Part shown: one piece after another, positions 16,933 through 42,247 of the stretch
Layout: every line of letters starts with the position of its first letter
Position numbering within the stretch: the stretch's first letter is position 1
Assembly (NCBI GenBank): GCA_030141605.1
Contig: JAQGDQ010000650.1
Location: 55,457 to 119,456 of the forward strand
Source of the DNA: Tubiluchus corallicola
Lineage: Eukaryota > Priapulida > Priapulimorpha > Priapulimorphida > Tubiluchidae
Length of the DNA: 64,000 bases
Reading direction: 5' to 3'
Made by a program: the position numbers and the translations under genes
The notes under the pieces: model-generated
Database searches by the model: none
What the model was told of the DNA's origin: nothing
Seen by the model: the letters and a program-made list of their open reading frames with translations, nothing else

Positions 16933-19900
16933 TTAAACCACTGACTCTGACTTGTCCACAGAGTCAAATTCACTCTTAGTTGTGGACTCAACTGAACCTG
17001 AAAATAATATATCTGTGGAATACACTGTCCGAAAATCTTAATAAGGTAATATGTTGAATGTATAAATTTTCACCAAGCACCCACAATTTACAAGTAGCTA
17101 TTCATTTGTCCACTCTTCAAGCAAATACTGAACATAAATTTGTAGAAACATAAAACACTTTCCAGCTGATCGTTTTAGCAGATATTTAGCATGATACTCT
17201 AGGAAGCCTTGTTTAGTTTCATTCAGTACACTGATTTAACTGCCTACTTGGTTGAAAACAATATTTAAAGCCGAACCACAACTAGGCCAAACATGAAAAA
17301 TTGATACTGACCTTTATTACTTGTATCTACTATAGGCAAGTCAATATCAGGTGGAATAGTTTTCTCAGGAAGAACAGAAACCTTTTCAGCAGCTCTTCTG
17401 TCATATCTCACCTCCTCCGGAGGAGGGTAGCTGTATGATGGCCTGTAAATAAGTCATCAATTTAGTTAAAATCAACTACAGAAATCATTACACTTAGCGT
17501 CAAAATGTTAGTAACAATTCACTGCTACGACAACAATAATCAAGTAATGCACATAGAATAGCTGATCTATCTAAGAACTAAAAATTAATATAAGCTGTGC
17601 AACAATGATTAAAAAATAGTGGCTTCTCAACATAGAACGGAATTTTAGTAAAAGTGGCATGCATAATTTTAGGAAAAAATAATCACATAGCTTCCTATGA
17701 ATCCTTAAAACACGAATGGCAATTTTCATTGAAATAATAATTATTTGAATTGAACTGAGTATGACAATTACCATCTAATTGAATAATAATTTTCAAAACA
17801 CTTCGAAGTTTGCAAATATGAGTATTGAGGCAGGACGCCTGCTACTGGCAGGCAAATGAATCAATGCCACACTCATCTATCAACTATCTTCTCTGCCCCA
17901 GGAATTATTTTGAACTGGTCCTTGTAGCTGCTAGTTTACTGTCATTCATGTTTTGTGCAGAGGTATCTCTTACTACCACTCACAGTCATTAGTCAGAAAA
18001 TGAACTGCATTGGAGAAACATACCTTTATTTTTTCTGTCATTTGATAGTTGATCAGACGATCTGCAAGTTTACGATTTCGTATTTGTTTTGTTTGCTTCT
18101 CACAATGTGAATTTTTGTAGTTTTTATTCACAATATTTGTATTAAGGTGGATTGCTGCATCAACGTTTTATTGTCGAGATGTACAGATAAGCAAATGTTT
18201 GTATTTGAAGAAAAGCCATGTCTCTGCTTAAGTGAATGCTGGCTATTATTTTCATTTTAAGAATTCGTTTTCCTCACAATCAATTTAAAAAAAAATCACG
18301 TAATAAAGTAGCACAATTTTCTATGCACCGATATATTCATAATTGTAGATAAGCAACTGTAATGGCTATGGCTATGAGCATCAACATCAGACCTGATGAT
18401 GCTACAATTTCTTGAATGAAATTCATAGGACATGACGAAATCTTATGAACTATTTCTCTGTTTTCATTATAAAAATGTGGGCTTCTTTATTAAAAGGAGT
18501 GGCTTTCACATATTGCACATTTTCCATTGAGATTCTTATACAGCTTTGTTGCGATGCTCAAACACATTGTACTTGATCCAATACTGACATAAAATAATTA
18601 TCACAGTTGTTAGCATTCTCTTATATACTTACAAGTCATGTACATAATGATCGTGTTTATCTGCTCGACCTCTCCAGTAGAAGATGTAGAAGAAGCCTAC
18701 AATGACAATGATAGCAGGCACCATGACACCAAATGAGATGGCAATCTTGTTTCCGATCTCTGTCAGTCTACGATCCTTGTGACCTGTAATAATAATAACA
18801 AAATTATGAAAATTCTACACATCATGGCATGCTTCACAGTTTCATTGTTTTTGAAACAGATGCCACTCTGACTCAAACAAAAATGAATTTGCATTAACCT
18901 TTTTAGTCTTAATATAAACATAATATGAGCTAGTCTGAACAATTTTTAATTCTAATCGCTTGATACACACAAAGAGCTCTTATGATCGACATAGCTGCTG
19001 AAAAAATACCAGCACTTTGCTATTAGGTTGTTAAACTGAAGAGTGGGAAGTTAGTTCAGCAAATGTTCTAGCACAAGAACAGCTCTTTTGTGAAAATGTC
19101 AAACAAGTTTTTTAACTCCAAGAGAATATTGCAATGCTTACTTCTACAAAGAACTGATATGCCATCAGACCACTGTCCATTCTCCATACATCGTCTTTCC
19201 TCTGTGCCCCAAAACTCGTAACCGGGAAGACAGTTGAAACGAACCACTGAACCAGACTGATAATTGTAGTAATGTTTCTCTCCATTGTATGGGGTCGGTA
19301 GAGCTTGACACGAGACAACTGTAAATAAGATAAGTCAATATATACATATATATATATTTAAATATATCCTAATAATGTACACCTAAAAATTTACCGAGAA
19401 TCAACTAAAAATAATTAAGGTGCACACAGTTGTTGGACTAATAGACTAAACTTTTCAAATACATCGTCCACAAGATAATCCCAGAAGTGTTTGTAAGACA
19501 TGTGACAATTTCTCACACTACATATTGCGATAGTTTGGCTGAAAATTTGATACAGGAAAAGTGATCAGTAACAGAAAACCAAATTTGAGTCCTTTGAAAG
19601 GGTTTAAACTGTGTTTTTAAACATAATTACTTAACTAAGCAAAATGAGTAGCTGAGTACCTCTTTTCAGCCCTGTGCGTAACATGGTTTCATATGATTCC
19701 TGTATTGTTCTTGTCCCAGCAGCCAATAACCTATTTCCGGAAGTGATGTAATCATACTGACAAAATTCATTGTCTCCACATGTTGCCAGGACGTTGTACA
19801 TATCAAATGAAGCATTGGGATGAATTTCAGGAAGCTAAGCAGAAAGCATACAACTTGGTAAAACTCAAGTTAAAAGTTCAGAAATTCAAGAACATTCAAG

Positions 19901-22900
19901 CTAATCACAAGAACTAGTTCAGCCACTAAACTGCTAAAGGAAGTACAGGTGCTCAGTTCAGTCAGCTGTTATAAGTGTATACTACCAGGTCAAACAACTT
20001 TCTCACTTTTGTGAAAATTGCTTGCTATTTATTAATGGCTAGCGACCAACTGCTTTGTGTATTAATAACTGTTGTACAATGGTAAAATGTTCTGAACATG
20101 TGGCATTTGCTGCATTTCATAAGATTATGTATACTTTCTCATTGTTTATAATTTGAGAACCAATGATTTTGCAACTGAAGGACACCAGCCTACAATGAGT
20201 AAAACACTTTACAGGAACTCGAAAATGCAACTAGAGCTACAAAACTAAAAATAAGGAAGAAAGCAAGAGAGCACTTGCTATTGATTCACCAGTTCTCTTA
20301 TCATGTCCTATGACCAAAAACAAACTACTAATCTAATTACAATTGTCGTTTGGTAATGTAACATTCAACATAAACAAGAACGCAAAGCCCTACTTTTTCA
20401 AAAAATGGCTCGAATCCCTCTTCCATATAATACAAGGTACTCTTTCCTGGTTTATATGTAAACATTGTTGTTCCTTCAATGCGCCCTGAAACCAACACTC
20501 ACTATAATTATTCAAATAAAAACAATGACAATGATAACTTGCACTAATCACTAGTGCCAAAAATAACAAAAGACAAGAAAACCAAAAAATATTAAATCCT
20601 TGCTTGCTTATGGTGGTGGAAGGTGATAACTTGGCGTGAGCAAACACTACTCGAAATCAAATTCGAATTGAATTTTTGGCTGTCAAAGTCGAATTGTATC
20701 AAGTTTCAAAATTTCAAATCTGAATCGAATTCAGTATTAAAGATATTCAAATAAATTTCGAATCAGTAATATAAATACTAATGTCCACAAAAAACTGGAA
20801 TTAGTTGTGAGATAATGAATACTGTGAATGTAGCATATGGCCACTAATTTACCACTAAGACTATAATGATTTGGTTTGCATAGCTAAAATTAAGAATCAC
20901 AGAAAAAATAATTTAACACACATAGAAATCTAGTGTCTACTTGAATCTACTTTTACTTACTGTACAAGTGATATGTTGGTTGTTTTGCACATTTCAAAAA
21001 CTTGTATGTTTTATTGCAGGTCTTGCAAGTTGCTTCTGATGACTCGTTAAACTTGAATTAAGTATGACCAATAAGTATTTGCTTCTGCAAACCATCTTAA
21101 CAAGGCTTAATATTTTGTTGAGGTTTAGCATATGAATATTTTCTAAATTGCAATTGTATGACAACAATACTGACTAAATAATTGCCACTCTCAGTCTCAC
21201 CACTTATTTTCGTTTTACAGCAGCTTGCAAAGATTGCGCATATAGCTTTTGTTCTACGGTAAAAACTCGTAATAATTTGTTAAAAAACAGTGTGCAACAA
21301 TCCCAGCCAAATTGTTCTTATATTACACAATTTTTCAATTTTTTAGTGACAAAGAATGAAGTAATTGGGGCTTTCAATTATTCCAATATTCGAATCGAAC
21401 ACCAACAAAAAACTCGCATGAAAAGTTCGATGCTCATATCCAGAGATAACAAAAGATCTTCAAGATTAATAAGGTCATGAATGCTATAATTGCCCCAGTG
21501 CTAGCATTACTATATCCCAAGCTTAGCTGACTTACCTTCAGTTGTCTTGGAGTAATAATGTGAAATTTTGGTGCATTTTATCCAATCCTAATAACTCTAA
21601 AGTCAAATTCAAAATCAAGTGCCCATAGGAGACTCTCATGCAACAGCAGTATTCCCTACGTGCCAAGTTTCATTAGCTTCAGCTTAAAGGAGATATAACG
21701 GAAAATATTCTGCTAGAAAAAATCCTGTACCAAATATAGGACTACTACCTTCAAAGGCAAAATGAAGGTTAGTATTTATTCGTGATCCTTCCCCTCGCTA
21801 GTACTAGCTATGTGTCAAGTCATTACCTAGGTCTCCACTAGATTTCTAAAGCCGCTTTCGTTTGCCGAGGGATAATAATTCATACATTACATTGTTAACT
21901 TACAAGTTTCTCCAAACTCGTAGAAAATATCGCGGTCTGTGTCAGGACGTACTAACTGGCCCTGGCTGGTCCTAAAATCGTTATCAGGGTCATCATCCCA
22001 TGTCCCCAGTAAACCGCGTGTATAATGCTGAAAACCAAAATAGTTACTGCATCAAATCAAAGATTTCTTTGGTACCATAGTTTTTGGCAAAAGAAAATAT
22101 TGAAAGCATCACAGTGGCATTATCTCTCGACTACAGCTAACTATAGTATAAAATTTATCTCAAGTCAGAACTAAACATGCAAACTGTAAGGTCGAAACAA
22201 ATGAATCATTATTTAAATTGTAAATAGATCATACAACAACCTGTAAGATTAAAACAAGGTGGATTATTATTTATTAGGTGGTACATCACAGGGTAAACTC
22301 GAAACATGGAGGATTATTATATATTAACTGATTCCATATAATATACTTCAATTACTAGACCTCTTTATATTCCACTACTTTGTAAGACAATTCCAATGAA
22401 AAATTTTAAATGTAATGCATTTTATATTTACCTATTGGCAACCGATACTGCTTTTTTGCGAAGGAAAAGACAAGAAAATAAAAATTAGGACCAATACCAA
22501 AGTGGAAAATGTGGTTATAAGTTATCCATGAGGATGTTTCTATACCTTAAACTCTAGCGGTAGAAACATGGTAACTGTTAGTGATCCATGATTTTCTTGA
22601 ACATGGAATCCACCACCCGATGCAAATTGCACCATCACCTCCGACTGATTTAAGTTAACATATGGGTTGAACACGGTAACACCTACAAATAAAAATGATT
22701 TCTACAATTTGTTTGCTATTGCAATATTGTGCAAAATTTATATATGCACAGAGATTCGCAAGTAAAGTTTATAAAAAATCTTCTTGGCTTGTAAGTGTGT
22801 AAAATGTCCAAAAGGAATATTAATAACTATTGTTAATAATAGGTAACGTTCTTGCTAAATTGGTAATGTAAAATCGAGGCATAACTACCTTTATAAACCT

Positions 22901-25900
22901 GAGCCTTAAAGTATGGTCGATCAAAATATATTTTGCGGCCATCAACAAGTACAGTCAACTTGTAACGCCATCTGGCATGGTATGGACGACTTTGAACTTC
23001 TACAGTAGCAGACTCATTTTCTCGTGCAACAATAGCTGTCATCATTGTTCCATTAGATTCGGCATTGTCTAAAACCAAAGCATAAACAATGTAAGAGTTT
23101 AACAAACAAATCTGAAGAAATTTGGTAAATAATTAACAGTTTTCAAAAATTTAAAAACCTAAAGCATTTGAAATCGACATTAACTTAATTATATCAGTTA
23201 TAAACTACCTCTATGAATTTGCTCACAAAGGCTGAATCAAAATGATCACAAAATTTTACTAATATACTCAGATTGAAGACAGCTAAGAATTAGTAAAGAA
23301 CAAAAACATGTATAATGATTTATTCTATTAATATTGCAAAATTACGGAAAAGTAAGAAATTATGGTGATGGAGTGCAAGTTTTTAAAAACAACTTTTAAA
23401 AAAATTTGCCTATGGCATATCAAAGAATGCAAAAATATATAATTTGCAAAATTTCCATTTTCAATTAAGAAGAATTTAGTGAATAAATTTTCTGTTTACA
23501 AATTGTAGATAACTAATGATAAAACAGTGCTGGTGAAAACAAGAAACTAAATTTTTATCAAAACTCACATGTTGAATTAGGAGGTTGTTCAAATCGCACT
23601 TGTACATAAAGCTTGTGAGGAAAGTTTAACTCTTTCTGCTCATGATGATGACTGGTGTTAAGCAAAGTGAATTCACCTTTACCATTGAAACTGTACTTCA
23701 AGCCATCAAATGTGATAAAGTGGGGATCACCAAAAGCAATCGCTAAAAAATAAATCGCTAAGTTGATTAAATTTTAGTCATAAACATCCTGAAGGAAAAA
23801 GAAAAAGTATTATTAAAACAGCTATAACACTTTCCAAATATGCAAACATCTGACCGACACACGTATTTTACACAGCAGAATATAAGTATGATACCATTAT
23901 TGGTTCAGCATCATCTATCCTTGATAATGATCTACATTCTGGTTGCCATGATACAATAAATACACCGTATAATAAATGCACTCTGCAGACAAATGTTGAA
24001 TGTTGAACCCGAATCCTAGTTTATAGAATGTAAAAATTTACATATGTAATCGAGTGACGCAGTAATAAGGCAATTAGAGTTAAAACCTACAGTGCTCCCT
24101 ACATTTTTATGATCACATGGCACAATATTATACAAGTACTAATGTTATTTTCAAAGTTTGTACAACAATCTGAGATGCCACACAAGTTAATAATCAGAAT
24201 TTACAGTAATTTGCTGATTACTGAAATAAATTTCACACGACACTGTATTCCAGTAAATACCATAAATAAGGTTTAGTGATCCATTCTGATGCCACATTTG
24301 TATGTTAATAAAGAAAATACAGTCTTCATTCTAAAAGGTAAATTTTGCACTAGGCTTCTAATTCTAACATCTTTATCACTGGATAATACAGGTCACATTT
24401 TTTAAATGAAACTAGAGTTGTTATTAAAAATCTATGTGTCCTAACTTGCATTTTACCACGACATTGCATCTAGCACATAATTTACAAAGAAAGCATGGTT
24501 AATTAATGTGGACAGTACATATGCATATTATAAAATGATTTTACCAGATTTTGGTGGTGTATAAGTTTGGCAGTCATCTGAAGGTCGTCTCCAGTAGTAC
24601 GGATCACAGAAATCATTCCACTCACAGCAAAAGAAATAGGACATTATGTCATATTGGTAATGACACCAATCTGGAATTTTGGGAGGGTAGATATGAGGGT
24701 ATATACCCCAAGGATGCGACCTGTCTGGTGTGCTGCCGTATCGTGTGTCAAAAACATGCATTATGTTTCCTCGAATGTCATAGCAGCACTGCTGGCTAGC
24801 TCCAATTAAACTAAATTAATGAACATGAGTATTTAGTATAAATGCAACTAACAAAACGTCAAAAAAATCAAAATAAGGCTTATGTACAAATATGTATATA
24901 TAAGAACAATAAGTGATACTGTGTTCAATAAATAGAAAATGCAGTATTGTCAGATGAAAGCATAAAGCGTCACATTTTCTCAAACTACTTTAAATTACTC
25001 ACTTTGGATAGGACTGTCGCACGCAATGCTGAGCACCAACATTAAACTCGCAGTCGAGTTTTCCATACTTATTACAGCTGTCGTCAGGCACCCATCTGAT
25101 TTTATCTGTTTCTGCTTGCTCCAGGGTACAAGGGCAGTAGTTCAGACTGTTCAAGATAGGCGTCTTCTGACTATAATACAGATATTTCATAAATGATTCA
25201 TGTGTTCCACAAGCAAAGATCTCGACAAGTATCAAAAAGCTTTTTTGAAACATCATGAAAATTTTCTTAAAAGAATGAAAAGACATTTCATTTAATTATG
25301 TTTTAATCACAGCTATTAGATAGAAACTCATATGACAAAAAACTGAAGTAATTAAACAGCAATTTAACATGATGCATATCATCGTTGTCTATGCTTATTG
25401 CAAAAAAACTTGAGCGAGAGATAAAACAAAATGTAAAAGATATTACTTCACAATGTAACTGTCAAATCACTGCAAGATATGAAAAAGACAAAAGCTAAAA
25501 TGTAATCAACATTTTTATGCAAAAAAGTATTATAAAAACTATAAACTAACTGCCAGGTATGTATAAAAGCTTTACAATGTACGTCATCATCATTCTATAA
25601 CTCTTAGATACTCTAACATAAAACAAGAACAACAACTTAGTGATTTTTACGGACCTGTCGCTATCATGCCATCGCATGCACTTCTCCATAGCCCAATCTC
25701 CTCCAAAGTTCTGTCGATAATGGGGCTGAAAATACCAAGCCAGTGGTATAGGTGGACTCCAGTAATGACTGTAAAGCATTAAAAACTGGCAATAGCATCA
25801 ATGAAACAAAATACAAATACAAAAATTAATTTAGTGTGGTGACATATATGGTTTTCTGACAGCCTCAGTGACATTTCTCCTAGAGTAATCACTAAACAAC

Positions 25901-28900
25901 ATAATCGTCATAATAATAACTACATTAACATTCATTAATTTTTATCTTGTTTTTAAGTTTCTAAGCTCGTTTTCACAATAGCTATTTACTTATTACAAGG
26001 TCTCATTAAACCTTATTTTGACATATGATAACAAAACAAAAATATTTTTCTACAAGCTGAGCCTAACACGCAGAAGAAACTAATTAATTTTAAAATTCAA
26101 TGCTTTGAATAATGAAAGCACTAGTCTACAAAATTTGCAGAACAAAATACCAACATATAAATTAAGTTTTTTTAGCTAAGATACAAAAGGCATAAAGCTT
26201 CTCTCAAGTCTGGCATACAATACTGCAATCTGACAACTTCATTTTGGAGCTGCAAATTTTGAACGTTTGAGGAGTTTGCAAAACAAACTCTCTAGTTTCT
26301 CCGTGAAGTAGATGGAACATAGACCAATAAAAGTGCACTTTAAACAGCCAAAGAACGTTTATAAATAAAATAAAATGACAGATAAAATTAATTGGATAGA
26401 ATATCTTGTTTCAAGACACATTTACAAGAATCAGTAAAAGATTAGTATATTAGCTTTTCATGTTACAAAGCTCACCCTTCCCACTCTTCCCCTGTTATGT
26501 TAAATCTTATGGCTCCGAAGTCATATCTTTTGTAGGCCCAATTATTATTACGTGTCATTGCAGTAGGCTTGAACTTATACAGTCCATCATTTGCTCGTCC
26601 AGAGACTAATTCATCTATATACTCCCAGTATGCTGCTTTTGCTGCCAAATCTTCTCGATATCCCCATATAGCTAAATTTCAAAAATGACAGTAAGACAAA
26701 ACTATTAAATGCATGCAAAAAGTTTGTTGCACAGCCAAATGATAAAACTACATTATAGAATAACTATTCTGTAATCTCCACAGATCAAACGTTAATTCAT
26801 CTTACTAAAAAAACAGTCCAAAAAATTATTTTTTATATCTCTCTTCGCTTTGAGCATCTATTGCTTTTCAATTTAAGTAGTTGCTGTAAACATAGAATAA
26901 ACACAATTAGTTTGTATTTAACATAAAATGCAAATAAGCATCTTCTAACAGCTTCACTACAATGTTGAGAGATAATATTTGATGTATAACTTTCGATCAT
27001 TATAACTCATTCATTTGCTCAGCATTTTCACATTCCAGAATACAAATACTAACATAAGCGGTCACTTTTTTGCCAAAAAAGTTATTCCCTGCTGAAATGC
27101 CATACCAGATGATGTGATCAGTGTCCCAAATGTTAGTGTTTTTAAAAGCAACTTGAAGGCAAAGCATCAAAGCCATGTGGCCAGCTGAGTTATTAAATTT
27201 GAAATGTCCAGTACTTATTCGCATTGTTGTTTTTGTTGATGTGGATAGTTTGCATATAAATTCACCAGAGAGGTATGCACATACTAGGCTATTGCATTTT
27301 GGGATGTTACAGCTCACTTGACCTTGTTATTACAACACAAATCTTTTATACTATTTACTAGTAAATTACTCTGAATGACTCAATACTCAGTTATAAAACA
27401 GATACGAAAGCAATAATTTAATTGATTTTAACTGACCTAACTCTAACCTAGCATCAGGGAGATAAGTCATGTTAAATGGATCCCATCGGATTTCCAACTC
27501 AGTAGCATCAAGAATTGTCTGGTCACCTTCCCATTTATGAATCCACCACTTCCTAGGCTCCAGCTGAATCCGGGGTGGCTCGTGACGAGTAGGTTCGGCT
27601 AAAACAAACACCAGCAAATGTTGAATTGATTTGCTACTTTGCGCAAGCACAAACACACCATTTGAGCAGTTTTTTTAAAAGACATCCTAACTTCTAACCG
27701 AAGTTGCAACTGGCAAGCCACTGGCACAAGTGTTTAATGTTTGCTGAATAACTATCGCATTACCCACGTCATAAAGATGATATGCCAACCGTCGAAGCAG
27801 TGAATATCCAACATCTAGAAGAGATTATATTACTCCATATTAACTATTAGCTTCTTTTTCATAAGAAAATGGCGATCTGCACTCTTAAACTAACTGTGCT
27901 GTAGTCATATGCAAGTCATACGTAATTATAGTAACAAAAATACTGAAGAAGTACTAAGCTTCATTTTTCATTACATACAAATGTAAAAGAAGTGAAACCT
28001 TTTGACACTTGCGTTAAGTAAAAAGAAATAACTTGAAAGCACACTTATTTTCACAAAAGCACCAACAAAATACATTAACACGTTTGTGAAATATGTACTC
28101 ACAAATAAAGAACCAGCCTTTAAAATTGTAAGCACTTGTACCATCATGAGACACCTCCAGCTGCACTGCACCACTTTTATAGAACATGGGCAGTAAACAC
28201 CGCGCACGAGTCTCATTCACATATCTACACTCAACAGTCTATAAAAAAACATATCACTACACAGTTAATCACCAAAGTTACTTCCTTTTAACAAGCCAGA
28301 CGCTAAAGGGATGCCATATTTAGAATGACAAAACATACTTGCAAGAAAATAACATTTATAATCTTAATTTTAAAATGATCAGTTAATCATAGAATAAAGT
28401 TCCAGTTGCTGAATGTTTGAAACCAAATTTTACAGAAGTAATAAAAAGGTGAAATGAAAAAAGACTGTGAACCAATACTCCTTTGTTCAGGTACAGGCTC
28501 AAACAAACTCTTTCATATTTTCTTTTCTCCGTTCGAAGTTTTGATTTCACCATATTTAATAACTGTAAGCTAATCTTATCTTACTCACTCCATTTTGGGA
28601 CCATGCCACATGCGTTAATTCAGTAAACTTCCACAAATGCTTCAACCCAGTTCCAGTTGTAGAGTTTAAATACTAATTTAAAAATGTACCTGTGTTTCAA
28701 ATCGTGCTTTTATTGTGCGCCCCTCAACGAAGCACGGACCGGAAATGTTAATGGCTTCTCCACCAAACATGGTACCAACCGATGGGTAAGACAAAATAAC
28801 ACCTGAAACAATTTACTTGTTACAATTTTAGTAAAAAGATTACTAAAAATATGGACTAGAAATGTGCAAAATTACAGTGAAAAACAACATAATAACTTAC

Positions 28901-31900
28901 AATTAAGAAATAAGTATTTTTAAGTGATGTATGCTGATGCTTGTGAAAATTTAAATTTAGCACAACCATTCTATATCTCACAATATTTTTTAACAGTGCA
29001 ACACAAAAACTACTTTAGTTACATATAATAGCCCTAACCCTAACCTTAACCCCAACTCAGTTGTATATATATTATATGAGGCATAAACTAATAAATCACA
29101 TTTTGATCTTTACTTTAAATTGTAAATAACATTTGAAATCACATTTGTTTAGAGAAAGTGTGTATGCATAGATTCTGTTTTTTCTAGCGATAGTATAAAA
29201 TTTTACATTTTAAGAATATAGTCATTATGCTAGACTTAATGCGAACTAAATAAACTTTAAAGACAATAAATAACAAATTCATACCCTGGGTCTCATTAGT
29301 ACAGCCACCTCTTTCAATAACCTCATCTACCCGGAAAATCCAACGACCTGGAGCATCGCCAGTGCTTGTGTACTCATCAATACGTGCGATGCCTGGGTTA
29401 CCAGAAAATGGTGTCAGCGGCCACCATTCTGAACCATTTCCAGCATTAAAACCAACCTAAACATGAGTCACACAACAGCTATGAGACACTCAGTTAAGAA
29501 AAGATAAGAAAAGGTACAAACACAAGCAGTCACGCAAAATTTATGGAACATATATTATGGAACTATTTTGAAACATATTCACAAATCATAATAGTTATAG
29601 AGCAAAAAAGGGATAAAAATATCTAGTGGTTCCTAACACATTTAATGGAACCCATTTATCACTACTAAAATACAAAACCTGATTTAGCAAACTTTTAAAC
29701 AGTCCATTAAAGGCAGCAAATAAAAATATAAATAATTTCAAAAGTAAGCACAGTATGCAGAAGACTTACCACTGCACCCCAGTTGCCTCCGAGACCACTG
29801 TCAGGATGTCCACCAGAATTGGTACTTGCGACCCATGTAACTTGCTCATAGTTCAGAATACAGAACGTGTGAACTTCATCTGTAGCACAAGCAACTTGAA
29901 AAGAATTCAACTAAAAGAAAAAAATTGGAAAAAATTAGAAAATGAAAGCTAAAATAAAAAGGGCAACAATTAAAGCCATACTGCTATTCATTTATAAGTT
30001 CATAGTGATTTATTTTAGCTATATTAAATTTTTGCATCTCTTTTAGGCCTATTTGGCTGAGTGTACAGCAGCAGGTAGCAACACTAATTTAATCAATTCA
30101 TTGATCTACCATACAAAATCAGTTGTGCATGCTGTAGTTGAGTTTAGTAAGCTATAAATGAACACACAACTCTACACGTAATCATTTCTTTTATGTGATA
30201 AATGACTCTGCTGTTATTTTCATCTGCAAACAGCCATATAGTCAACACATTATTTACTTTTTTATGTAAACAATACATAAGTCGTGAGAGTTCAGAAAAC
30301 TGAAGCAACTCTGTCTAGCACACATAGCAGAATAGTATAAAAAAGATTCACTAGTGATTTTAGATACACTTTCATCTAACTATTTTGTTATTTGCTGTTT
30401 TTGTGTCAAGTTAAGTTCACTCTCACATGGTGATTGCTTAAAGCCCTTTAATAACAAGCGTCAAAACAAATAATTTTGGGTTAATTGTGAGATTAACAGA
30501 TTAACTAACAGGTAGTGAGGTATTTGTTGCAGTAACTCCGCATAACAATAAGTCACATTTAGATTTGGCAAAAAAGGCATGAAAACTTTGCTTAAAAGTC
30601 AAACAAAGTTTGACCTTAAGGTTGCATAATTTCTAATTACTGCTTATTCAATGCTATTTTAACAGTAAACATATTTTAAACAAGGGAGATAGTTTTAACA
30701 GGCTGCAACTGCTTGGCATTCTCTGTAGTATTATGTCATTGCATTATAAAATTCATGTTGTACTGTACTTGGAAGTCAAAATTCAATATTTTCTCTAAAA
30801 AGTTAGATTAATAATAACTCATTAAATAGCATTTACAGGAGAGCATTTTCAAGTCACCAGATTTTAGCAAAAAATGTACGCAAAGTAAGTGAAAATAAAA
30901 TTGCTGCCAAAATAATGGCAAAATATTTTGATGCTGCTCTTGCCTTAACAAATTCACTTACCGGTGGTCCACCTTGGTTGTAGACATTAGCACCCTTAAA
31001 TGTGACTTCATGCCAAGTGCAAAGAAAAGCATATCTGGCAGTAAATTTTGATGCTCCAATAACACCTGTTTTAAATACGAATAGTTAATATACGGTTTAT
31101 ATACTTCCCTGTCTCATTAGTAAGTCGTATCGCAAAAGTTAGTGTAATTTTTACACTTTGCAAAAAAGCTGGAAACTCTGATGCCAAGCATACCTGCTGC
31201 ACTTAGAAACTGCTAGGTGTAATAACCAAGGATTAACATAAAAGCAAAACAAGGATTCAACAATCAACAATCATAAATTATATAGTATAAAAACATTGAT
31301 AAATGTATAAAAATATATAAATGTGAACAAAAAACAGAAAAATGGTATCTACAGTAATATTCCATTTGAGCGTTGTAGGCAGTTCCACCTACATAATAAT
31401 AACAGTACCTCATAGAAAAGACATGATAATAGATAAACCATTAGAAATATTAAGTAATATCAAGGCTCAGTACTTATACAATTCTTACGTAGTACCTGCA
31501 CGTAATTACTACTATGAATAAGCAAAAAATAAAAACTTTCCAATCTTTTCGAACTGTATGTATTTTATACACTTATATTCAATTACATCATAATTATTAT
31601 GAATGAGTCTTAATATTAACAAAATTCTACAGAGACTTGGTCAGAGTCAAAACTGTAAAAAAAACTGGTATCCTGGTACAGTAGTACCTGGTATGAAGTT
31701 TGAACCAATTTGAAATTGTATTTCAATCTAATATTAATACTAAAAACTTGATATGACTTTTAGATAGCTCAAAAGCTGCCTAAATCTGATGTTCTATGTA
31801 ACATCTAATTTCTCTACAAAAGCGTTCATAATTAAGCTTATATAACTGACAGCCATCAAAAACTGAAAAGTATTTATTAATTTTTATGAGAAACCTCATG

Positions 31901-34900
31901 TTGCTAAATTTTGTATTAACTCTATTAAACAGTTCCTTAATTCTCATTTTTCTGTGTCATCGTTATCGCATAAATAAAATGTAACAACCTCACCTAAAGA
32001 AACTGCACAATTTGCAATCAGCAAATTGGGATCACAGTTTATTACAGGTAATCTGGAATCTATATAGACCTAGTCAGCTTAGGTAGAATATTTACTATCT
32101 TGAAGTACTAAATGCTTAAAAATTTTGTTGATAAAGAAATGCATACTACTCGCATACATAAATACACCAAAATACACTAGTGTCTATGTCAAAACACAGT
32201 AAAATGTCTTCCAGTGTAATGTCTCAAGTTCAACATTTGCAGTTAAAACTACTGGGTTACTAAAAATAGTAAATTAAAGGCACATCATGGCCTTGGTGCA
32301 ACTTGAAATCATACAAAAAATGAAGAAATGTAAGGAAATTAAATTGAAACAGTATCAACAAATACACTCTGCGTACCAGAACGAATATCACCAGTGATTT
32401 GATCCAAAACTATTTTATCTTTTCTGTTCTGTTCTTCAACTTGCTCACTTGTCACTACACGTTGCTTAGCAGTCCGATAGTACACCTGAAATAATATGAT
32501 TATTCACACATGCCATCCTACCAAATCAAAAATCAAAGACAAGCAAACGTTTTATCATATTTTCAAGAAAATATTTTTCTCTCCTTTAAAGACAGTTGAA
32601 AAGACAGTACGTGAAAAACTATTCTTAAACGAGAAGAAAAAGAAATTTCAAGGTATATCCCAAATCTTTCAACTTTCGATACAAAGTTATAATTACTTAG
32701 CATTACACTTACCTGTTTAAAAGACTTACATAATTATAAAAAGAAAATTTCTAATAAATTAAAACATTTGGGCCAACTGGTAAAACGGTATCCCATTACC
32801 ATCCCAGTGTTTATCACTGACTCACCGAAAAACGCATTATTGATCTTGCTGATAATATAAAATAATTAATATTTTTGCTTAGTTAGCAAACAAAATGCTA
32901 CGAAATCTGATTATTTTTTCAAACTTTATACAATGCTATCTAAACTTGTCTCAAGCAAGTTATTGTTAAAATGGCCGTGCCCAACGGTCATCACGGGAGT
33001 TAAAATTACAAGTTTTATACAGCATTGCTGCTAATACACTTTCCGTGCACAATAAGACAGCATAATAAGTGATACAAAATTTCAAAACAAATTTGTGATG
33101 TTTTATTAAGGGAAGTGGATAGTGCTCGGATGACCAGAACCACGTTACCGAATTATATTGTTCCGATGATCAGAACCACATTTCAAAAGGATAAATTTCC
33201 GATAATCACGTACATGGAATTAGCCAAACTTTTACAAGAACTTAGTTTAAGTGTAGAAATATCATAAGAGAATAATTTTTGAAATACAAAAAGTGAAATC
33301 TTTTAACGCAGAAAAATCGCGGACATAAACACTAAACACTATCAACCACAAAGCTCGCTTAGCTCCACCTTCAATGATTTCAGTGCTCTGACATGCAGAG
33401 GCGACCTAACAATACCGACTCTGGCATAAACTACACAAATTTCAAATGTATTCGCACCAGTTTTAAAAAAATCCACACCCATTGGCTCTCTTGTACAAAA
33501 ATATCCTCATGATTGGTGATTACATACGTTAATTACAGGCGATAACTACGTTACTTTACGGCATTTTCTGTTGGCTATTTTTCCAGATAAAAGTGGTGTT
33601 CAGAGCACACCCGATACAGACACCAGTTCAGGTGACAGTTGATTTGAGTACAACGTATGTTAATTTAGCCGTTATCTGGATTATCGGAAGAGTATCAATT
33701 TTTTAATGGTCGGAACTTGTGCATGCAGCAAAATTCGCAGTTCCGATGATCAGAACAATACCCACTGCCTAAAGTTATTAAGTGTGTTTTCTTGTTTTTC
33801 AGGACTCTAATTATGTGCCCTTGTATATATATATGTTTCTAAATGCCCGCAAGTGCAGCAAAATTTATCTACACCAATAAATCTCCAACTAGAAACTCTT
33901 ACAGTTTTAGTGCCAGTCACTGCCAGTGCTGGTTGGTACTCGTTGTGCTCTACTGGTATAGCTATTCTTTTAAAAAATACACAAATATACAGCACTTGGC
34001 AAATATACAGTACACTGGTATATAACTACCACTTTATTAGGTAAATATAATCAGTCTAAGCGAAATTTAAATTATAGGTTTAATATCGTTTATATCCAAC
34101 TAGAGTGAATAATCGTCTGGATTTTCCTGGATAGGTCACGGAACTAAGAAGCCAAAATGAATCCAAAAATTGTCATGGGAAATAAGTGTTTACCGCTGAT
34201 TTCACATTTTTCAAACTCATACACAATTAGTCAATCCAAATACAAATAAATGAAAATAAATGTATTTGTTAAGTATGCTGTTTGAGCCTTTGAAGCTTGT
34301 TTGAACGTTTCGTTCATTGTTAAGTAAAGCTGTACTTAGACCAAGTCATTAATGATGGTTCTATTTTGCGTAGCGACAATTTTTTTCTAGACCACTACAT
34401 GATTTACGTGGACGCCATTCTAAATTATTTGTACAAATACTCTCGCACTAATATCAAAGCCCATTTCTTCTTTTCTTGTGTTGTGTCCACAAGTTTGGAA
34501 CTCACTTAATAGTGAAACACTAGACGCATCAAATCTACCGCAGTTTCGCAAACTGTTGAGGAGAAACCGTCAATAATCGTGTTATGGTTAGGTATCTTAG
34601 ACTTGGAAAGCAAGTTTCTCAAGCAAATTTAAATAGCAAAATTGGATTTCGCTGTTTTAGCCTAGATTGCAGAGAAGAAATCTTTAGAGAAATACATCTG
34701 ACCATTATACAAAGTGATTAAAGAGGTCTCTATACTTTTATATGATAATTCTACACATATATATCTATCTATATAATATACGTATATTATACATTATACT
34801 ACCGGATTATGCAATTATCTATTCACCTAACATCCTGGCGGCTGGGGTTCCTGCTACAGTATTATATATGGCTCGTGCATTACCAGAGAATGGAGGTCCG

Positions 34901-37900
34901 GAGCCGGAGACACCTTTGCCTGATGACCAGTCACGCGGTCACCAGACTCACCACTTAAACGCTAACACCGACTAGTGACTACTAAATACTGGCGAAAACT
35001 ATGGAATGTCACAGCAAATATCCAAAAATGGAACAAATCGTCATGCAACCCTCGACAAAATGGAATTTGTACATCATCCCGTGACAAGTATTTTTATTTT
35101 TTATGATAACTAGAATGCTACTTACTTTTGAATCGGTGTAAAAATCAATTTCGGACATAAACACAGCAATGATAGCTGGATCAACTTCTTCGGGATATTT
35201 TTCCCACGGAAGTACAATAGGTGTTTGTCTGACAAACAATGGTGGAGGCTCAGCAAATGACAAGAAACCATCATTGAAGACCTGTCAACAATCATGTAAT
35301 AAACTGAAACAAGATTAAGCTCACACAGAGGATTCTTGGCTTACCTTTTATGAAGAAATTAAATAAACAATTATTTTATACAAAAATTGCCGTTAATTTG
35401 CATGTTTTAGCAGAAAGCTTTTAAGTGTGCCGATTATATATATATAATTATTATCATTATAGTTATCATGCTGCAGACAAAAAGCAACAAGGAAACATGT
35501 AAGCGTAAATCCAAGCAACAGTAAACCCTCCTGAAAATAATTGCAGCGTGAAACTGTACTACTTTTTCATGTTAACCATGTTCTGACAGGCAGAGACCTA
35601 ATTAATAGTCACTATAGTCAGGCATTGCATGTTTCTAGAAGAGATAAGTCGTGATCAGTTTCAATCATTCTATAGGTTCCCAAACAATAACGATGCATTA
35701 ATTTATTATTTTTAAATGTAGTTAATAGAACGTTTAAAACTCATTTTTCGTACAGGATAGTAAACCATAAAATAATGAGAAAAATTAATAATGCCGCCAA
35801 AATACAAAAATTAGTTTGAATACAACTCAGCAGAATATGCAGGCAAATAGTGATATAGCCATACAGCAATTCCCGCTTGGAGCCACAGAACAAAATTTAC
35901 GGAAATTTTTGCACTATTTACAAAAATTTTTGAGCGCTTAATTGGCACTTTGCCATCTGAATATAGGAACAATTAAATTTTTCCCTGGATGATTAGGGTT
36001 TTCTAATTCATTGAATACATGAGGTGCTGTAAAAAACTGAAATTTGTTCTCAAAATATCTTTAAACTACGCCAGTAATTGGTAATTCAATAATATCTTTT
36101 CGCAGAGATGCGTTAAAGTCAATAAAACACTATTTGGCAGAAATACGCTGAAGCAAGCAGCTACCCCAACAAACCTAGCGTAGACATTCGCTAATGAATT
36201 AGTGGACGTTTTGTGACTACACGAATCATAATGAGATTAACCATTTTGGGATTCTATTACAATGATTATCTTTCACATTCAAATGCGTAATATTGTTATT
36301 ATTATTGCCATAGCTCTAAAGCGATATTTTGATTATTGTTTGTCTCAGTACAACAAATACTTATGGTTACTACTTACACGTATTTTACTTCTGTTTGAAT
36401 AAACAAAAAATTAAGCCAAGAAGAAGTGATCATTATAACTATAACCTAATGCGGAATAAGTGACTTTACTCTACGGGTGCGCAGACTATTGAGCTAATTA
36501 GACTAATTAGAGTAATCGCGTGTGAAAGTAATGTTAAGGTGGAAAATGTAATTATAAAATTTTTTTAATACAGATAAATAGCATAAAAAGTTTTGACACC
36601 AATTGTTACACAACTGTCAGAAGTATACTGCTGAAATACAGAAGTGTTCACATTATAGTTATAAGTAAAGAAATCTAGCTACAGCGTAAAGACTGGAAAA
36701 ACGTTAGTAATGTTATTGCTAGTATAATGTAGGAGTACGCGTTCGCCTCCTTTGTCAGCTAACATTTATACCTCATTAGGTATGATAACTGCAGGTTTAT
36801 AGTTGCTTCTAATTAGAATGAAACAGAAATAAAATTATTACAGAGGTAAATGTTTTAGTTAATAAGGTCACTATAAAATTTCAGTACAAAGAGAGTCCCT
36901 ATATAATATTAAAAGACAAAGTAAGAACTCTTCATCCTGCTAAACAGATTTACAGATTTAAATAAAACATAACCAGTAATACTAGTGTCTAAATGTTATT
37001 GGTGATTAATACTGAAGATGATAATTTAGCAGAATGCTGCGAGTAAGGCGCGTTGGTCTACTATATATATATGTAGGCCTATTGCCTTGACATGGGTTAT
37101 TCCGGTAGATAAGCGTTGTGAAAAAAAATGTACAAAAACATGCAGTGTTAATTGAGAAAGAAATGGCAGCCTTCAGTAATTAGTAGTGCAGCTTTAGCGA
37201 AAAAGGTACCAGATGCAAATATTAATGTAGTAATTTTTAAAGAAAACGTGCAAGTTCATAAGTACAGTGTCCAGTCAAGAGTCAGCGTGCAGAAAGATGT
37301 TGCTCACAGAAGCACTCAAGGTTGAGAAGACGAGTAGCAGACATCATGCAGAATAACAAAGTCGGCAGGTTATAAGTCAGCTGCATCTACATACTTACAA
37401 ATGTGTAATTATATCGACTACCGTGGAACGGTAATTCAAAATCTAGATAAACTGTAAATGAGAATCCGGCTAACGTTTGGGTATATTTATCTCCGTACTG
37501 CTCTCCATATGGGTACATAACCCTGGCCGTCCATTGCGGGAGCTGTGTGACTATAAACAGCAAAGAGTACATATTATATAAAAATTCTAGACTAAAAATA
37601 CCTCACAGTTATACGAGCATTGGTTTTTGCCGAAACCAGCTAGGAATACACTAGTTTAGAATCTTTACAATTTCACGTAAGCGCGATGAAATGTCAAATG
37701 TGTGGTTGTTTGGACATTCAAGCTTTCTATATTCATTGGGTCCAAATTTACCTTATATGCCCAGACCCGATTTGTGCGATTGTAATAATAATATCAGCAC
37801 TTATATAATAATAATCCAAATGGGACGTGGGAACAGGATAGCTACCTGTGACTTTTGATCAAGCATTGAGTTTCAAACAAAAAAGAAATGCTCGTAAAAC

Positions 37901-40900
37901 TGCCATCACGACTGTAAGGGTCACTACAACTTTTACTTACAAATGAATAATTGTAGCGACTCCCATAAAAGGGCATTTGAAATTGAAGATTAACTGTAAA
38001 TGACCATCCAGCCAATGTCTGAGTATAAGAATCTCCATAGTAATCCCCATAAGGGTAAAGAACTCTTTTGTCCCATGGTTCTGGGGCTTGAGTAACTGTA
38101 ATGGGTATCAAAAATGAGATGACAATTATGATAAAATGATAACAGCAAGATTTATACTTTCTATATTGATGGCCAACAAATATTGAGTATAGTTTCCCAC
38201 ACATAATTATACACGTTTATTAATATATAACTGGTAACAGGCACATTTTTACACCTTTTTAAAACACATATTAAACATATTTTTTATCATTCTTTTGAGT
38301 TACCGGCGTGAGGACTGAAATAAAGTAAAGTATTTTGAACCCAAAAGCATTTAATTATAGTCATAAACAAAATCATTTATCTTTTTTCTCCAACATGAAT
38401 GTTAGGCCTATAGTTACGAAAAAATACTCGATTGCATGTTGTATGAGTTCTTCAAACAATACTAATTTGTTGGTCTGATTCACGACACATTTGAATTAAA
38501 ACTATTTACTTCAGCATATGGCCTCAATGTAATTACTGAGTAGCATAGTAAATAAACAAAACGTAGAAAGCTAATAATCGCTCTTGAATATAATATGGAA
38601 GGAGAAGGCTATTTTCTATCCTTTCAACCTGTTTTAACCTTTATTTTGACCTTTGCCCTTCATGATTGATGATTCAATTAGTGGATCCTGTTGCCTGTAT
38701 AACCTTTTTAAACCTTCGTTATTTTTGAAAAAGCGTAGGCGCAAAGCCGCAAACTCTTTTAGATGCCAGCATAGCAATCATAAATCTTATCATCTTCATG
38801 ACTCAGATTTTACACAAAAGGTTTGAAAATGTAACCTAGGTAGGATAAACAATCCAGCGGTGTTACGTGTACGATATCAAGATCCGTACGGCGTATGCAT
38901 GTCAATAAACCAGTAAGGACCTTTGGACTGTTTTTGACTAGGTATGTGTAGGTAAAGGTGCGCAACTGATCAAAGCAAATAGAAACTTGTGCTGTATTTA
39001 TAGCCCTCTACGCTGTCACATTTATATGACCAAATTCAAAATGGCGATGAAGTTTTCTTGTTAAATCTATCACTGCATAATATACGTTCTTGTTTAAGAG
39101 CCATTTTATTTTATCAAAAGCTAACTGTTTTGTCACATTCAATAGTCTTAATTTAGCTTGTAATTATTTTATTAATTAAGACGTTATTATATTTATTATG
39201 AAGGATTTACTCAGCCAGCTCTATAGGCACATTCTATGATAACCATCACAGTCACTTAGGCTGACCATTATAAAGATTGTAACAGTAGGCGCCCAAGATG
39301 GTAGTCTGCCCATCATGAGAAAGCTCTAAACATGAGTAAATGGATGAATAAATAAAAGAACGAACAAAGGAAAGAATAAATAAATAAAGGAGTAATTTAA
39401 TGAATGAATGAACGAACAAAATTAAATGAATCAATCAATCAAACGAATCAAGGAAAATCAGTGTATAAAATCATGAAAGAAATAAGAAAACCAAGGAAGC
39501 GGCGGACAAATGACTGATGAATGAATGACAGAACGAGATAAGTGCATATCGCATTCTTTTAGCTTAAATTAAAAAAAGGCATACAGCCTAATATTTTCAT
39601 TATAATCAAGTGACACGTACATATAACCATTAGCATTACCGTTAGAAAAACAAAATTAAGAATATATGTTTAAGAATATAAACCCCTAGTAAATAAACAA
39701 CCATTTACTTAAATGTTTAAATAATAAAAAACATAAAATAAAACGAGAAACCTGTGAATGTTACCGTGCTGGCACCATAAATACCTATGACTGGAACGTA
39801 ATATCCAAAAATTTTCGAAGTTTGCCTGGCGTAACAGGCAGACGCTTATTTCATGTTCATCCACACATTAGATGGTTTAAATTTGACTTCATTTCAGTAT
39901 GCAGCAATGATGAATACTAATATTAAACAACATGCTTTAATCGGGAACTTAAACCGAACTATAAGCATCCTAAACGCATTTCGAGTACTGCGAACACAAT
40001 TTCGCAGGCCGGCACAAAAAATTAGGCGCATATCAATCAATTTATTATCCAATCATTTAACTCATGTGCCCATCTAGCTAACCGACGTCACTTAAAACTG
40101 ATTTGTTTAATCAACGGTTTTTTTTATTTACCCAAAGCAAACACCTAATTGATACATTAATTCACAGGATGATCGCGGAATATTATGTTAGCAAATAAAA
40201 TTAAAAAATGACAAGTTTTACTTCGTGTAAGCTTAATAGATTTTTATCTTACGATTGCTTTAGCTACTTCCACACGGGCCTATCACAAATACATAAGTTG
40301 TAACATGTAAGTTTTTAGACTATTAACTGTTAGTGGCGAGTTAATATATTTATAGTGCAAAATGATCACTTATTTGTCGTTATTTATGCATGTAGCTGAA
40401 TGCTCATAATGTGTGTTTAGCAAACGCAGTCAAGCAATGCTAGGCCTGGTCAGTAAATGGACGGATGATCACCGGAAAACTGCTTCTAAGAAATTTCACC
40501 TTCTATAATGCTTTCAGCTATTTACTGCATTCAAACTTGCACAAGACACCTCTATCGGCTGAGTACCTCATTTCAGAGAACTAGATTTAATACTAAACGT
40601 TGGGTAAGTTCTGGTCCCGCAACAACAGCAAAATTAAAAGAGCCTGTCGTTAGACGCTGGACAGAGGCTGTACCCTGTTTGCAGTCTATGGAACGGACCG
40701 AACGGTACATCACTAGCGGTATAAATTCTTGCAGTGAAACTTTTAGCAAGCTGCTTGAAACAGGCATAATTAACTAGGCTCTGCAAAAAAGTGGCCTGTT
40801 ACTTTAGCGGCGGGTTAGCTGTTATTTTTCGTACTTCGTCGAATCTGTACAAAGCACGTTTAAAACATCAAGTTTAATGCAATTAAGTCTAATACAAACT

Positions 40901-41506
40901 TAGGCCTATATCAAATTCTCAGCTTCTCATGGGATGACGACACTGTTGTGTCGTAACCGAAAGCTAAAAAATGTGGAAATTTCAATGAGTAAATTCCTTC
41001 ATGTATCTGAGTATTCTATATTTTGAATAAGTAATAACGCAGTTAAGCTCTGTTCATACTTCATATTTCATACAGACACTTTTGTAATTTTAAAAAGATT
41101 ACAAACTAAATTTTTCTACCGTAGAAAAATTAAATTTACAAAAAAATAACATGAATTTATATTTATTCACAGATTTGTTGGTTGAGAATGGTTTAGAGAT
41201 TAAACCAAAACATTCTATTTTAGCTTATTGAAAATTATACTTGCACTGATCTGATTTGGTGCTGATCTCATTTACAATTTCAAGGATATCATACAGGCTG
41301 AATTTTGTTGAAAGATAAAGACAATTTATGTGTTCATCGTAGTAAGTTCATCTAGTGCACAAAAATCGTACAATTCTTAACAACAAAACTATTTTTCAAA
41401 TAAAAAAATTCTCACCTTGTCCTTCCACAGCAACAAAGCAATAAAGTGAAGTAAGCGTTAATGTTCCTACTAGGGAAAGAAAAATTGTCCGTCTTAAAAA
41501 AGTCAT
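16933..41506 (-). CDS. mesh: Mesh-like cell-junction transmembrane protein (NIDO-AMOP-VWD-Sushi)
   Basis: In insects Mesh is a membrane protein of smooth septate junctions; I infer an epithelial adhesion role here. The exons on the minus strand are 41506-41416, 38095-37941 (2a) or 37550-37399 (2b), 35281-35126, 32485-32377, 31065-30962, 29910-29770, 29456-29285, 28802-28690, 28238-28103, 27598-27437, 26671-26476, 25768-25655, 25170-25003, 24810-24545, 23742-23569, 23068-22889, 22682-22546, 22027-21904, 20485-20394, 19834-19660, 19318-19142, 18783-18633, 17442-17312 and 16997-16933. They sum to 3489 nt (1162 aa), with all phases matching. Domains by residue: signal peptide 1-27; NIDO about 60-305 (GRWIFRVDE at its end); IPT/TIG-like 310-395 ([17 protein letters not shown]); linker with [13 protein letters not shown] about 512-655 ([21 protein letters not shown]); VWD about 697-900 ([31 protein letters not shown]); post-[22 protein letters not shown]; Sushi 989-1048 with four cysteines; TM about 1061-1084; tail with [15 protein letters not shown]2 is the related alternative, but it lacks NIDO. 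Confidence 0.9.
20631..21442. mobile_element. hAT-type MITE, copy 5 (812 bp, mesh-like intron)
   Basis: Left end TTGGCGTGAGCAAAC and right end GATGCTCATATCCA are diverged versions of the family ends, with ATTCGAATTG and ATTCGAATCGAAC inside. The 8 bp flanks GTGATAAC (20623-20630) and GAGATAAC (21443-21450) differ at one base. At 812 bp it is the longest copy in the window, but no transposase frame is visible. It lies in the intron between mesh-like exons 18 and 19. Confidence 0.75.
29032..29053. repeat. telomere-like CCCTAA interstitial run
   Basis: CCCTAACCCTAACC followed by TTAACCCC, two to three units of the metazoan telomere repeat, in the intron between mesh-like exons 7 and 8. Too short to be more than an interstitial trace. 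Confidence 0.6.
33111..33769. mobile_element. ~660 bp TIR element in mesh-like intron
   Basis: The ends are similar inverted sequences: GGAAGTGGATAGTGCTCGGA at the left, and at the right GATCAGAACAATACCCACTG, then CC. About 30 bp align with several mismatches. Subterminal copies of TTCCGATGATCAGAAC occur at about 33161 and 33741. No clear target duplication and no transposase; superfamily unknown. Confidence 0.5.
34404..34576 (+). pseudogene. LINE reverse-transcriptase C-terminus relic
   Basis: The plus strand encodes, with a frame break, [11 protein letters not shown] and then [27 protein letters not shown] and a stop at 34574-34576. This is the typical C-terminus of CR1/Jockey-type LINE ORF2 (RxH...VWNSLP...FK..L). 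It lies in the intron between mesh-like exons 3 and 4, antisense to the gene. Only the last ~55 codons remain. Confidence 0.6.
34820..34975 (+). other. GC-richer coding-like segment, unidentified
   Basis: An open stretch with [20 protein letters not shown] then [20 protein letters not shown], ending at a stop at 34973-34975, in much less AT-rich DNA than its surroundings. It lies 240 bases beyond the LINE relic in the same intron. It might be part of another element or a stray exon. No family recognised. Confidence 0.25.
35282..37398. other. mesh-like intron between exons 2b and 3
   Basis: 2.1 kb AT-rich intron. I searched by eye for a third copy of the duplicated exon 2 and found none, and saw no transposon ends. 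Confidence 0.4.
37399..37550 (-). CDS. mesh: mesh-like alternative exon 2b
   Basis: 152 nt exon with the same phases as 2a, encoding [20 protein letters not shown] and [12 protein letters not shown]. It has the acceptor TTTATAG and the donor GTAAGT. The intron between 2a and 2b is 390 nt, long enough for normal splicing, so exclusion would need regulation or decay of double-inclusion mRNAs. Both copies are open, with good splice sites. Confidence 0.83.
37941..38095 (-). CDS. mesh: mesh-like alternative exon 2a
   Basis: 155 nt exon, entering in phase 1 and leaving in phase 0. It encodes the start of the NIDO region, with [20 protein letters not shown] and [12 protein letters not shown]. It has the acceptor TTACAG at 38096-38101 and the donor GTAAGT. 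It is about 70% identical in protein to exon 2b. Each is 2 mod 3 in length, so joining both or skipping both shifts the frame before exon 3; only one can be used per mRNA. Confidence 0.85.
39336..39540. repeat. degenerate GAAT/AAAT tetranucleotide tract
   Basis: Stretches such as AATGAATGAATGAACGAAC, AATCAATCAATC and AAATAAATAAAG. It is the same kind of sequence as 7545-7745. Confidence 0.65.
40508..40777 (+). CDS. possible small protein, unidentified (89 aa)
   Basis: An 89-codon frame within the first mesh-like intron, antisense to that gene. The N-terminal half is rich in Arg, Ser and Thr with no acidic residue ([26 protein letters not shown]), which would suit a mitochondrial presequence. 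The C-terminal half is mixed ([27 protein letters not shown]). The DNA is less AT-rich than its surroundings. A 64-codon frame also exists on the minus strand here, and I recognise no family, so it may be chance. Confidence 0.2.
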   Translation: MLSAIYCIQTCTRHLYRLSTSFQRTRFNTKRWVSSGPATTAKLKEPVVRRWTEAVPCLQSMERTERYITSGINSCSETFSKLLETGIIN

Positions 41507-42123
41507 CTTGAGTCTAGCAATTACTACACAAAGTACAACAACGGTTCCACTCCCTAATTATTGTCCATAGTGTCTACCAAGCATGCGCACTATCGCATAT
41601 GGGCTGTTTATGGTCATGGAAGTTGGACCCGGGATAAATATTTGTCCAACTAACGCATACACAGCACCAACGAAATACAGCTTTAGCTATCATTCTTGCA
41701 CCTATTTTTATGTTATATTGTATGGGCACATATATGTCACTGGTCATAAAATAATTTGAATGGCATATTAGCCTTTGTTAAATAAAATATACTATAGTAA
41801 TAAGTTAACTATATAGTGTTGAAAAAGCCTAAACCTATTCTATTTTACTGAGGAAATATCAACGAGCGCGCGTTGATCTACACAGCACTGCGCTTATCGG
41901 CTCAAGAAAACATAAGGCCTACATAGCCCTAAATTTAAAAAAAACAACAAGCACCGGAATTTAATTACCTATCGCTTTGAATTCTAGAACAGCGTTTATA
42001 ATTTTAGGCTTAAAAGATATTGTCTTATTTTTGTAGATTTCTGTATTGCAGCCAACCAACAATCAACTCAATATCACATGACAGCGTAGCGTACGCGGCA
42101 TTAAACAGCACTAAACACTAAAC

Positions 42124-42247
<124 letters not shown>

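Follow-up and report, generated by a model that had tools for sequence, protein, structure and literature searches.

Does a gene of the priapulid Tubiluchus corallicola carry two versions of one exon between which each transcript must choose? The gene in question, which encodes a Mesh-like protein, lies on the minus strand of a 64,000-nucleotide (nt) stretch of contig JAQGDQ010000650.1 (positions 55,457 to 119,456 of the forward strand), here called the window, to whose numbering all positions refer unless another contig is named. Exon 2 of this gene is present as two adjacent copies, 2a and 2b. The frame, phases and homology of the pair and the coding constraint on it favour use of one of the two, and we consider it quite probable, judging from sequence, that 2a and 2b arose by tandem exon duplication and are spliced as mutually exclusive exons. 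The parts of the gene are as follows.

41416..41506, minus strand: coding part of exon 1, from the ATG to the donor AAG/GTGAGA; exit phase 1; signal-peptide-like by eye
37941..38095, minus strand: exon 2a, 155 nt (2 mod 3); entry phase 1, exit phase 0; acceptor ACAG, donor GTAAGT
37551..37940, minus strand: intron between 2a and 2b, 390 nt
37399..37550, minus strand: exon 2b, 152 nt (2 mod 3); entry phase 1, exit phase 0; acceptor ATAG, donor GTAAGT
35126..35281, minus strand: exon 3, 156 nt; entry and exit phase 0; the match to Pfam NIDO begins two residues earlier
29286..32485, minus strand: exons 4-7 with the remaining NIDO (32485-32377, 31065-30962, 29910-29770 and 29456-29286, the end of exon 7 being provisional)
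16933..28809, minus strand: remainder of the Mesh-like gene, with AMOP, VWD and Sushi (Pfam) and, by eye, a hydrophobic segment and a short tail; exon ends approximate

The exon pair and its reading frame

The preliminary description of this locus had proposed exons of 155 and 152 nt, both 2 mod 3, that enter in phase 1, leave in phase 0, are bordered by AG and GT and lie 390 nt apart, and each of these features was recovered at the coordinates given for it. The intron between exon 1 and exon 2a measures 3320 nt. The chains 1-2a-3-4-5-6-7 and 1-2b-3-4-5-6-7 are both open, for 309 and 308 residues, respectively. By contrast, 1-2a-2b-3 runs into a stop at codon 109 and 1-3 into a stop at codon 34, which confirms that using both copies or neither breaks the frame, and no full-length protein arises from joint inclusion or joint skipping. 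The exclusivity had been called strict. This is correct for the full-length reading frame; at the RNA level, the frame lock leaves double inclusion and skipping possible. Products of 1162 and 1161 residues had also been predicted, of which the one-residue difference and an open frame were confirmed; the totals were not reproduced, a rough automatic chain of 24 exons, some of them clipped, giving 1098 and 1097 residues. If the pair is spliced exclusively, each cell would make either the 2a form or the 2b form, and transcripts with both copies or neither would meet an early stop and probably be destroyed by nonsense-mediated decay.

The protein matches the Pfam NIDO (E 5.3e-31 and 4e-31), AMOP, VWD and Sushi models in that order, all above the curated cut-offs, and by these predicted domains the gene has the extracellular domain order of the Mesh family, Drosophila Mesh-like. 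In a published study (PMC4964579), the beetle Mesh orthologue DVSSJ2 and MESH are described as containing NIDO, AMOP, VWD and Sushi domains and a single transmembrane segment, together with a TIG domain. Drosophila mesh (CG31004) and the window gene are thus alike in the order NIDO-AMOP-VWD-Sushi-transmembrane segment, the last recognised by eye in the window gene. The three Drosophila isoforms are said in that study to vary in the C-terminal cytoplasmic region, whereas the variation in the window gene would fall in the N-terminal flank of NIDO.

The 2a and 2b exons are adjacent and homologous, of similar length, with equal entry and exit phases and with splice sites present, although the donors score low. 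The tandem-duplicated exclusive exons of arthropod muscle myosin heavy chain, arthropod N-cadherin, Dscam and human U2AF1 are likewise homologous neighbours of similar length and equal phases whose joint use breaks the frame. The present pair differs from these in its host, a Mesh-like NIDO/AMOP/VWD/Sushi protein, and in that competing RNA pairing was not detected here. The arrangement is of a textbook kind in a host gene for which no report of a mutually exclusive pair was found among the matches listed from the open-licence literature. In a study of human mutually exclusive exons (PMC5740500), 91 of the 122 annotated exons have lengths not divisible by three, exons of such lengths occur in 377 of 629 clusters, and joint reads occur in 83 of these 377. 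The validation rules given there accept joint reads if joint inclusion breaks the frame, which we count in favour of exclusive splicing of 2a and 2b.

Coding constraint and a paralogous gene

The 2a and 2b proteins are identical at 36 of 52 aligned positions (69%) and differ at 16, with one position a gap, in agreement with the roughly 70% identity first described. Searches with 2a and 2b by tblastn in 6.4 kb gave E values of 5.6e-22 and 2.1e-22, and this likeness is therefore not due to chance. Over the 42 donor-proximal codons, 35 of the 126 aligned bases differ, with 9, 2 and 24 of the differences at codon positions 1, 2 and 3; the excess at third positions (24/35) has a binomial p of 2e-5. 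The proportion of differences is 0.71 at synonymous sites (pS) and 0.165 at nonsynonymous sites (pN). An assembly artefact or an allelic duplicate can be ruled out, as the copies differ at 35 of 126 bases.

To this can be added a neutral simulation that started from 2b, with 20,000 runs per level and substitutions only, indels and splice-site loss being uncounted. In these runs the stop-free fraction was 33% at 0.1 substitutions per site, 15% at 0.2, 8.8% at 0.3, 4.3% at 0.5 and 2.4% at 1.0. Taken with the pattern of differences, these values make it very probable that 2a and 2b alike have encoded protein through most of their long history; had one of them been lost recently, this would leave no sign. 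No third copy of exon 2 was found in 35201-41600, which spans introns 1 and 2. When 20 exon peptides of the gene were compared with the window at E up to 0.5, the last exon not being searched, no convincing second copies of other exons emerged; one 20-residue match (E 0.04) was taken as chance, and for exon 3 the window held one weak match only (E 0.13). Relatives of exon 3 were also sought in viral contigs, where 19 pattern matches were obtained, none of them a relative.

Another contig of the same genome (G000:C2307:212656-221747) carries a paralogous Mesh-like gene in which exons for NIDO and AMOP are present. Its exon 2 (221747-221599) is 149 nt long, again 2 mod 3, and has the phases of 2a and 2b, leaving in phase 0. 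In 30 kb around this exon neither a second exon 2 nor an exon 1 was found; within that span the paralogue thus has a single exon 2 where the window gene has two. Because this lone exon has the same unequal phases, the frame lock was probably inherited from an asymmetric ancestral exon. Two side observations concern the paralogue itself. The stretches that match exons 3-5 lie in a single open frame without breaks (220269 to about 219900), whereas the window gene has introns there, and just upstream of the exon 3 acceptor, on the minus strand, lies a very long leucine-coding run, apparently a simple repeat that serves as a huge pyrimidine-rich tract.

Exons 3-7 of the window gene and the paralogue are identical at 183 of 226 residues, with a pN of 0.119 and a pS of 0.83. 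For exon 2, over the 42 codons, pN is 0.124 between 2a and the paralogue, 0.154 between 2b and the paralogue and 0.165 between 2a and 2b. The first of these values fits the split of the two genes as measured in exons 3-7, and the other two are larger, which suggests that the exon duplication may be as old as the gene duplication or older, 2b having been lost in the paralogue. Faster change in 2b would fit these values too. In protein, the identity to the paralogue over these codons is the same for 2a as for 2b (78.6%), which favours neither order of events.

Splice-site strength and competing explanations

Splice sites were scored with textbook weights, the other sites in 41400-35300 serving as background. 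The acceptors of 2a and 2b score 0.42 and 2.02, both inside the range of the other exons of the gene (-4.2 to 4.9). The two donors, both TTT/GTAAGT, score -0.31, at the bottom of the range for the gene (-0.3 to 7.5), owing to the TTT that precedes an otherwise consensus GTAAGT. The splice sites had been described as intact, and they are indeed present, but the donors are not strong.

Several observations weigh against exclusive splicing of the pair. Beyond the position of both donors at the bottom of the range, 22 of the 351 GTs in 41400-35300 equal or exceed the score of either donor, and among the 292 AGs in the same stretch, 34 equal or exceed that of the 2a acceptor and 14 that of the 2b acceptor. 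The frame lock is the automatic outcome of duplicating any exon with unequal phases and is therefore no independent proof of regulation. The divergence test excluded the first 10 codons of 2a and the first 9 of 2b, the part in which the alignment gap lies. Finally, a recently dead copy would still look open, the simulated probability of its being free of stops being 0.33 after 0.1 substitutions per site and 0.15 after 0.2.

This last point, that a recent death would be traceless, together with the weak donors, speaks for a different explanation, in which one copy is dead or decaying and the other alone is used. Both copies, however, are without stops and retain both borders, the divergence between them is high at synonymous and low at nonsynonymous sites, and a long-dead copy would be unlikely to have stayed open (probability 0.043 after 0.5 substitutions per site and 0.024 after 1.0); we regard the loss of one copy as very unlikely. 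It could also be asked whether 2a forms, or forms in addition, the last part of a different first exon that has a promoter of its own, in which case the transcripts would take the forms 2a'-3 and 1-2b-3. Upstream of 2a, an in-frame ATG (38204) does open an unbroken frame into it, with a hydrophobic run that is signal-peptide-like by eye. Yet 2b likewise has an in-frame upstream ATG (37572), indicating that such ATGs arise easily, and any pyrimidine tract, if translated, yields hydrophobic residues. As the 2a acceptor, moreover, matches those of 2b and of exon 2 of the paralogue in place and phase, a separate first exon appears improbable.

The remaining alternative is compatible with exclusive splicing and concerns its purpose: the pair might act mainly as an expression dial, with double inclusion or skipping as a regulated, unproductive outcome that lowers the amount of Mesh-like protein. 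Such use would be consistent with the early stops that both wrong outcomes give and with the joint-inclusion reads in 83 of the 377 human clusters whose exon lengths are not divisible by three (PMC5740500). A dial of this kind leaves unexplained, however, why coding constraint stands alongside differences at 16 of the 52 aligned positions, and we give it little credence as the main role of the pair.

Possible control of the choice and its predicted consequence for the protein

If 2a and 2b are mutually exclusive, the question arises of how one is chosen. Steric hindrance requires an inter-exon intron too short to accommodate both sites, and the intron here has 390 nt; the cut-off of the human study is <50 bp from donor to branch point (PMC5740500). 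The splice sites on either side of 2a and 2b appear to be of the ordinary GT-AG type. A search for RNA pairing in the 390-nt intron and its flanks, which the preliminary description had suggested, gave no convincing signal. The folding of this intron is unremarkable (z -0.51, with 35 of 100 shuffles at least as stable). A stem scan of five intron pairs likewise yielded no outlier, the observed best being reached in 18, 58, 101, 128 and 184 of 200 shuffles; the values for the 390-nt intron against its flanking introns (18, 58, 128 and 184) thus lie within the shuffle range. Cruder whole-duplex energies, calculated for five comparisons, were as low in 2, 9, 9, 57 and 58 of 60 shuffles. The lowest case (2/60) paired the last 500 nt of intron 1 with the 390-nt intron, and it was not confirmed when the stem scan covered the last 600 nt (58/200). 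Competing RNA pairing of the docking/selector type was not observed.

Given an intron too long for steric exclusion, ordinary-looking GT-AG sites and no standout intron pairing, the choice would probably be set by trans-acting splicing factors, perhaps by an RBFOX protein that promotes the use of 2b. UGCAUG is the binding motif of RBFOX proteins, which promote use of the exon upstream, and two copies of this hexamer, which we take to be RBFOX-type motifs, are found downstream of 2b.

37345..37350, minus strand: UGCAUG, 49 nt downstream of the 2b donor
37139..37144, minus strand: second UGCAUG, 255 nt downstream of the 2b donor

Given the frequency of UGCAUG in the window, at least two within 300 nt would occur with a probability of 0.006, a figure that applies to a stretch and a motif picked post hoc. 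Over the whole of intron 2, two occurrences in 2117 nt are unremarkable (P 0.19), and no UGCAUG was present in the 599 nt of the paralogue that were examined. The two motifs are thus a weak lead to RBFOX control of 2b.

The choice had been thought to swap the first strands of the NIDO domain. The Pfam NIDO match, however, begins at residue 81 in the 2a form and residue 80 in the 2b form, and the exon 2 segment (about residues 31-82) falls just ahead of the NIDO core, with only about its last two residues inside the match; the swap is therefore placed almost wholly before the core. The two proteins would differ over about 51 residues, after a signal-peptide-like start. Nidogen and tectorin have a similar N-terminal stretch ahead of the NIDO core, and by analogy the exon 2 segment may be an N-terminal extension of the NIDO fold. 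Among the sequences of solved structures (PDB), exons 1-2a-3 and the NIDO region had 0 matches at E up to 1.

Taken alone, these sequence features are commonplace among mutually exclusive exons. Should the gene produce both forms, a single junction protein would come with two alternative outer ends and would provide a handle on the role of the NIDO flank in partner choice or barrier properties. Exon choice might act as an adhesion-specificity switch, as the preliminary description proposed. It is also conceivable, though unlikely, that all of these elements combine, such that an RBFOX-type (UGCAUG) switch turns 2b on and 2a off and replaces the outermost NIDO-flanking segment, the partner recognised by the epithelial junction differs by tissue, and the switch dates from about the time of the split from the paralogue or earlier, the paralogue having retained a single form.

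The remaining observations concern the surroundings of the gene. Exon 1 of the Mesh-like gene is preceded by a long GA-rich dinucleotide repeat (window about 42123-42247). A scan of the whole window with Rfam gave 0 matches at the gathering thresholds. On the plus strand, an uninterrupted frame of 485 residues at 12148-13605 matches aminotransferase class I and II (Pfam E 1.4e-70) and is apparently intronless, unlike the neighbouring Mesh-like gene. An exon-like open frame at 47723-48388, also on the plus strand, matches eukaryotic phosphomannomutase over residues 7-39 (E 1.7e-6). On the minus strand, the exon at 411-608 matches the RNA polymerase Rpb3/Rpb11 dimerisation domain (E 4.1e-20) and presumably belongs to POLR1D/RPAC2.

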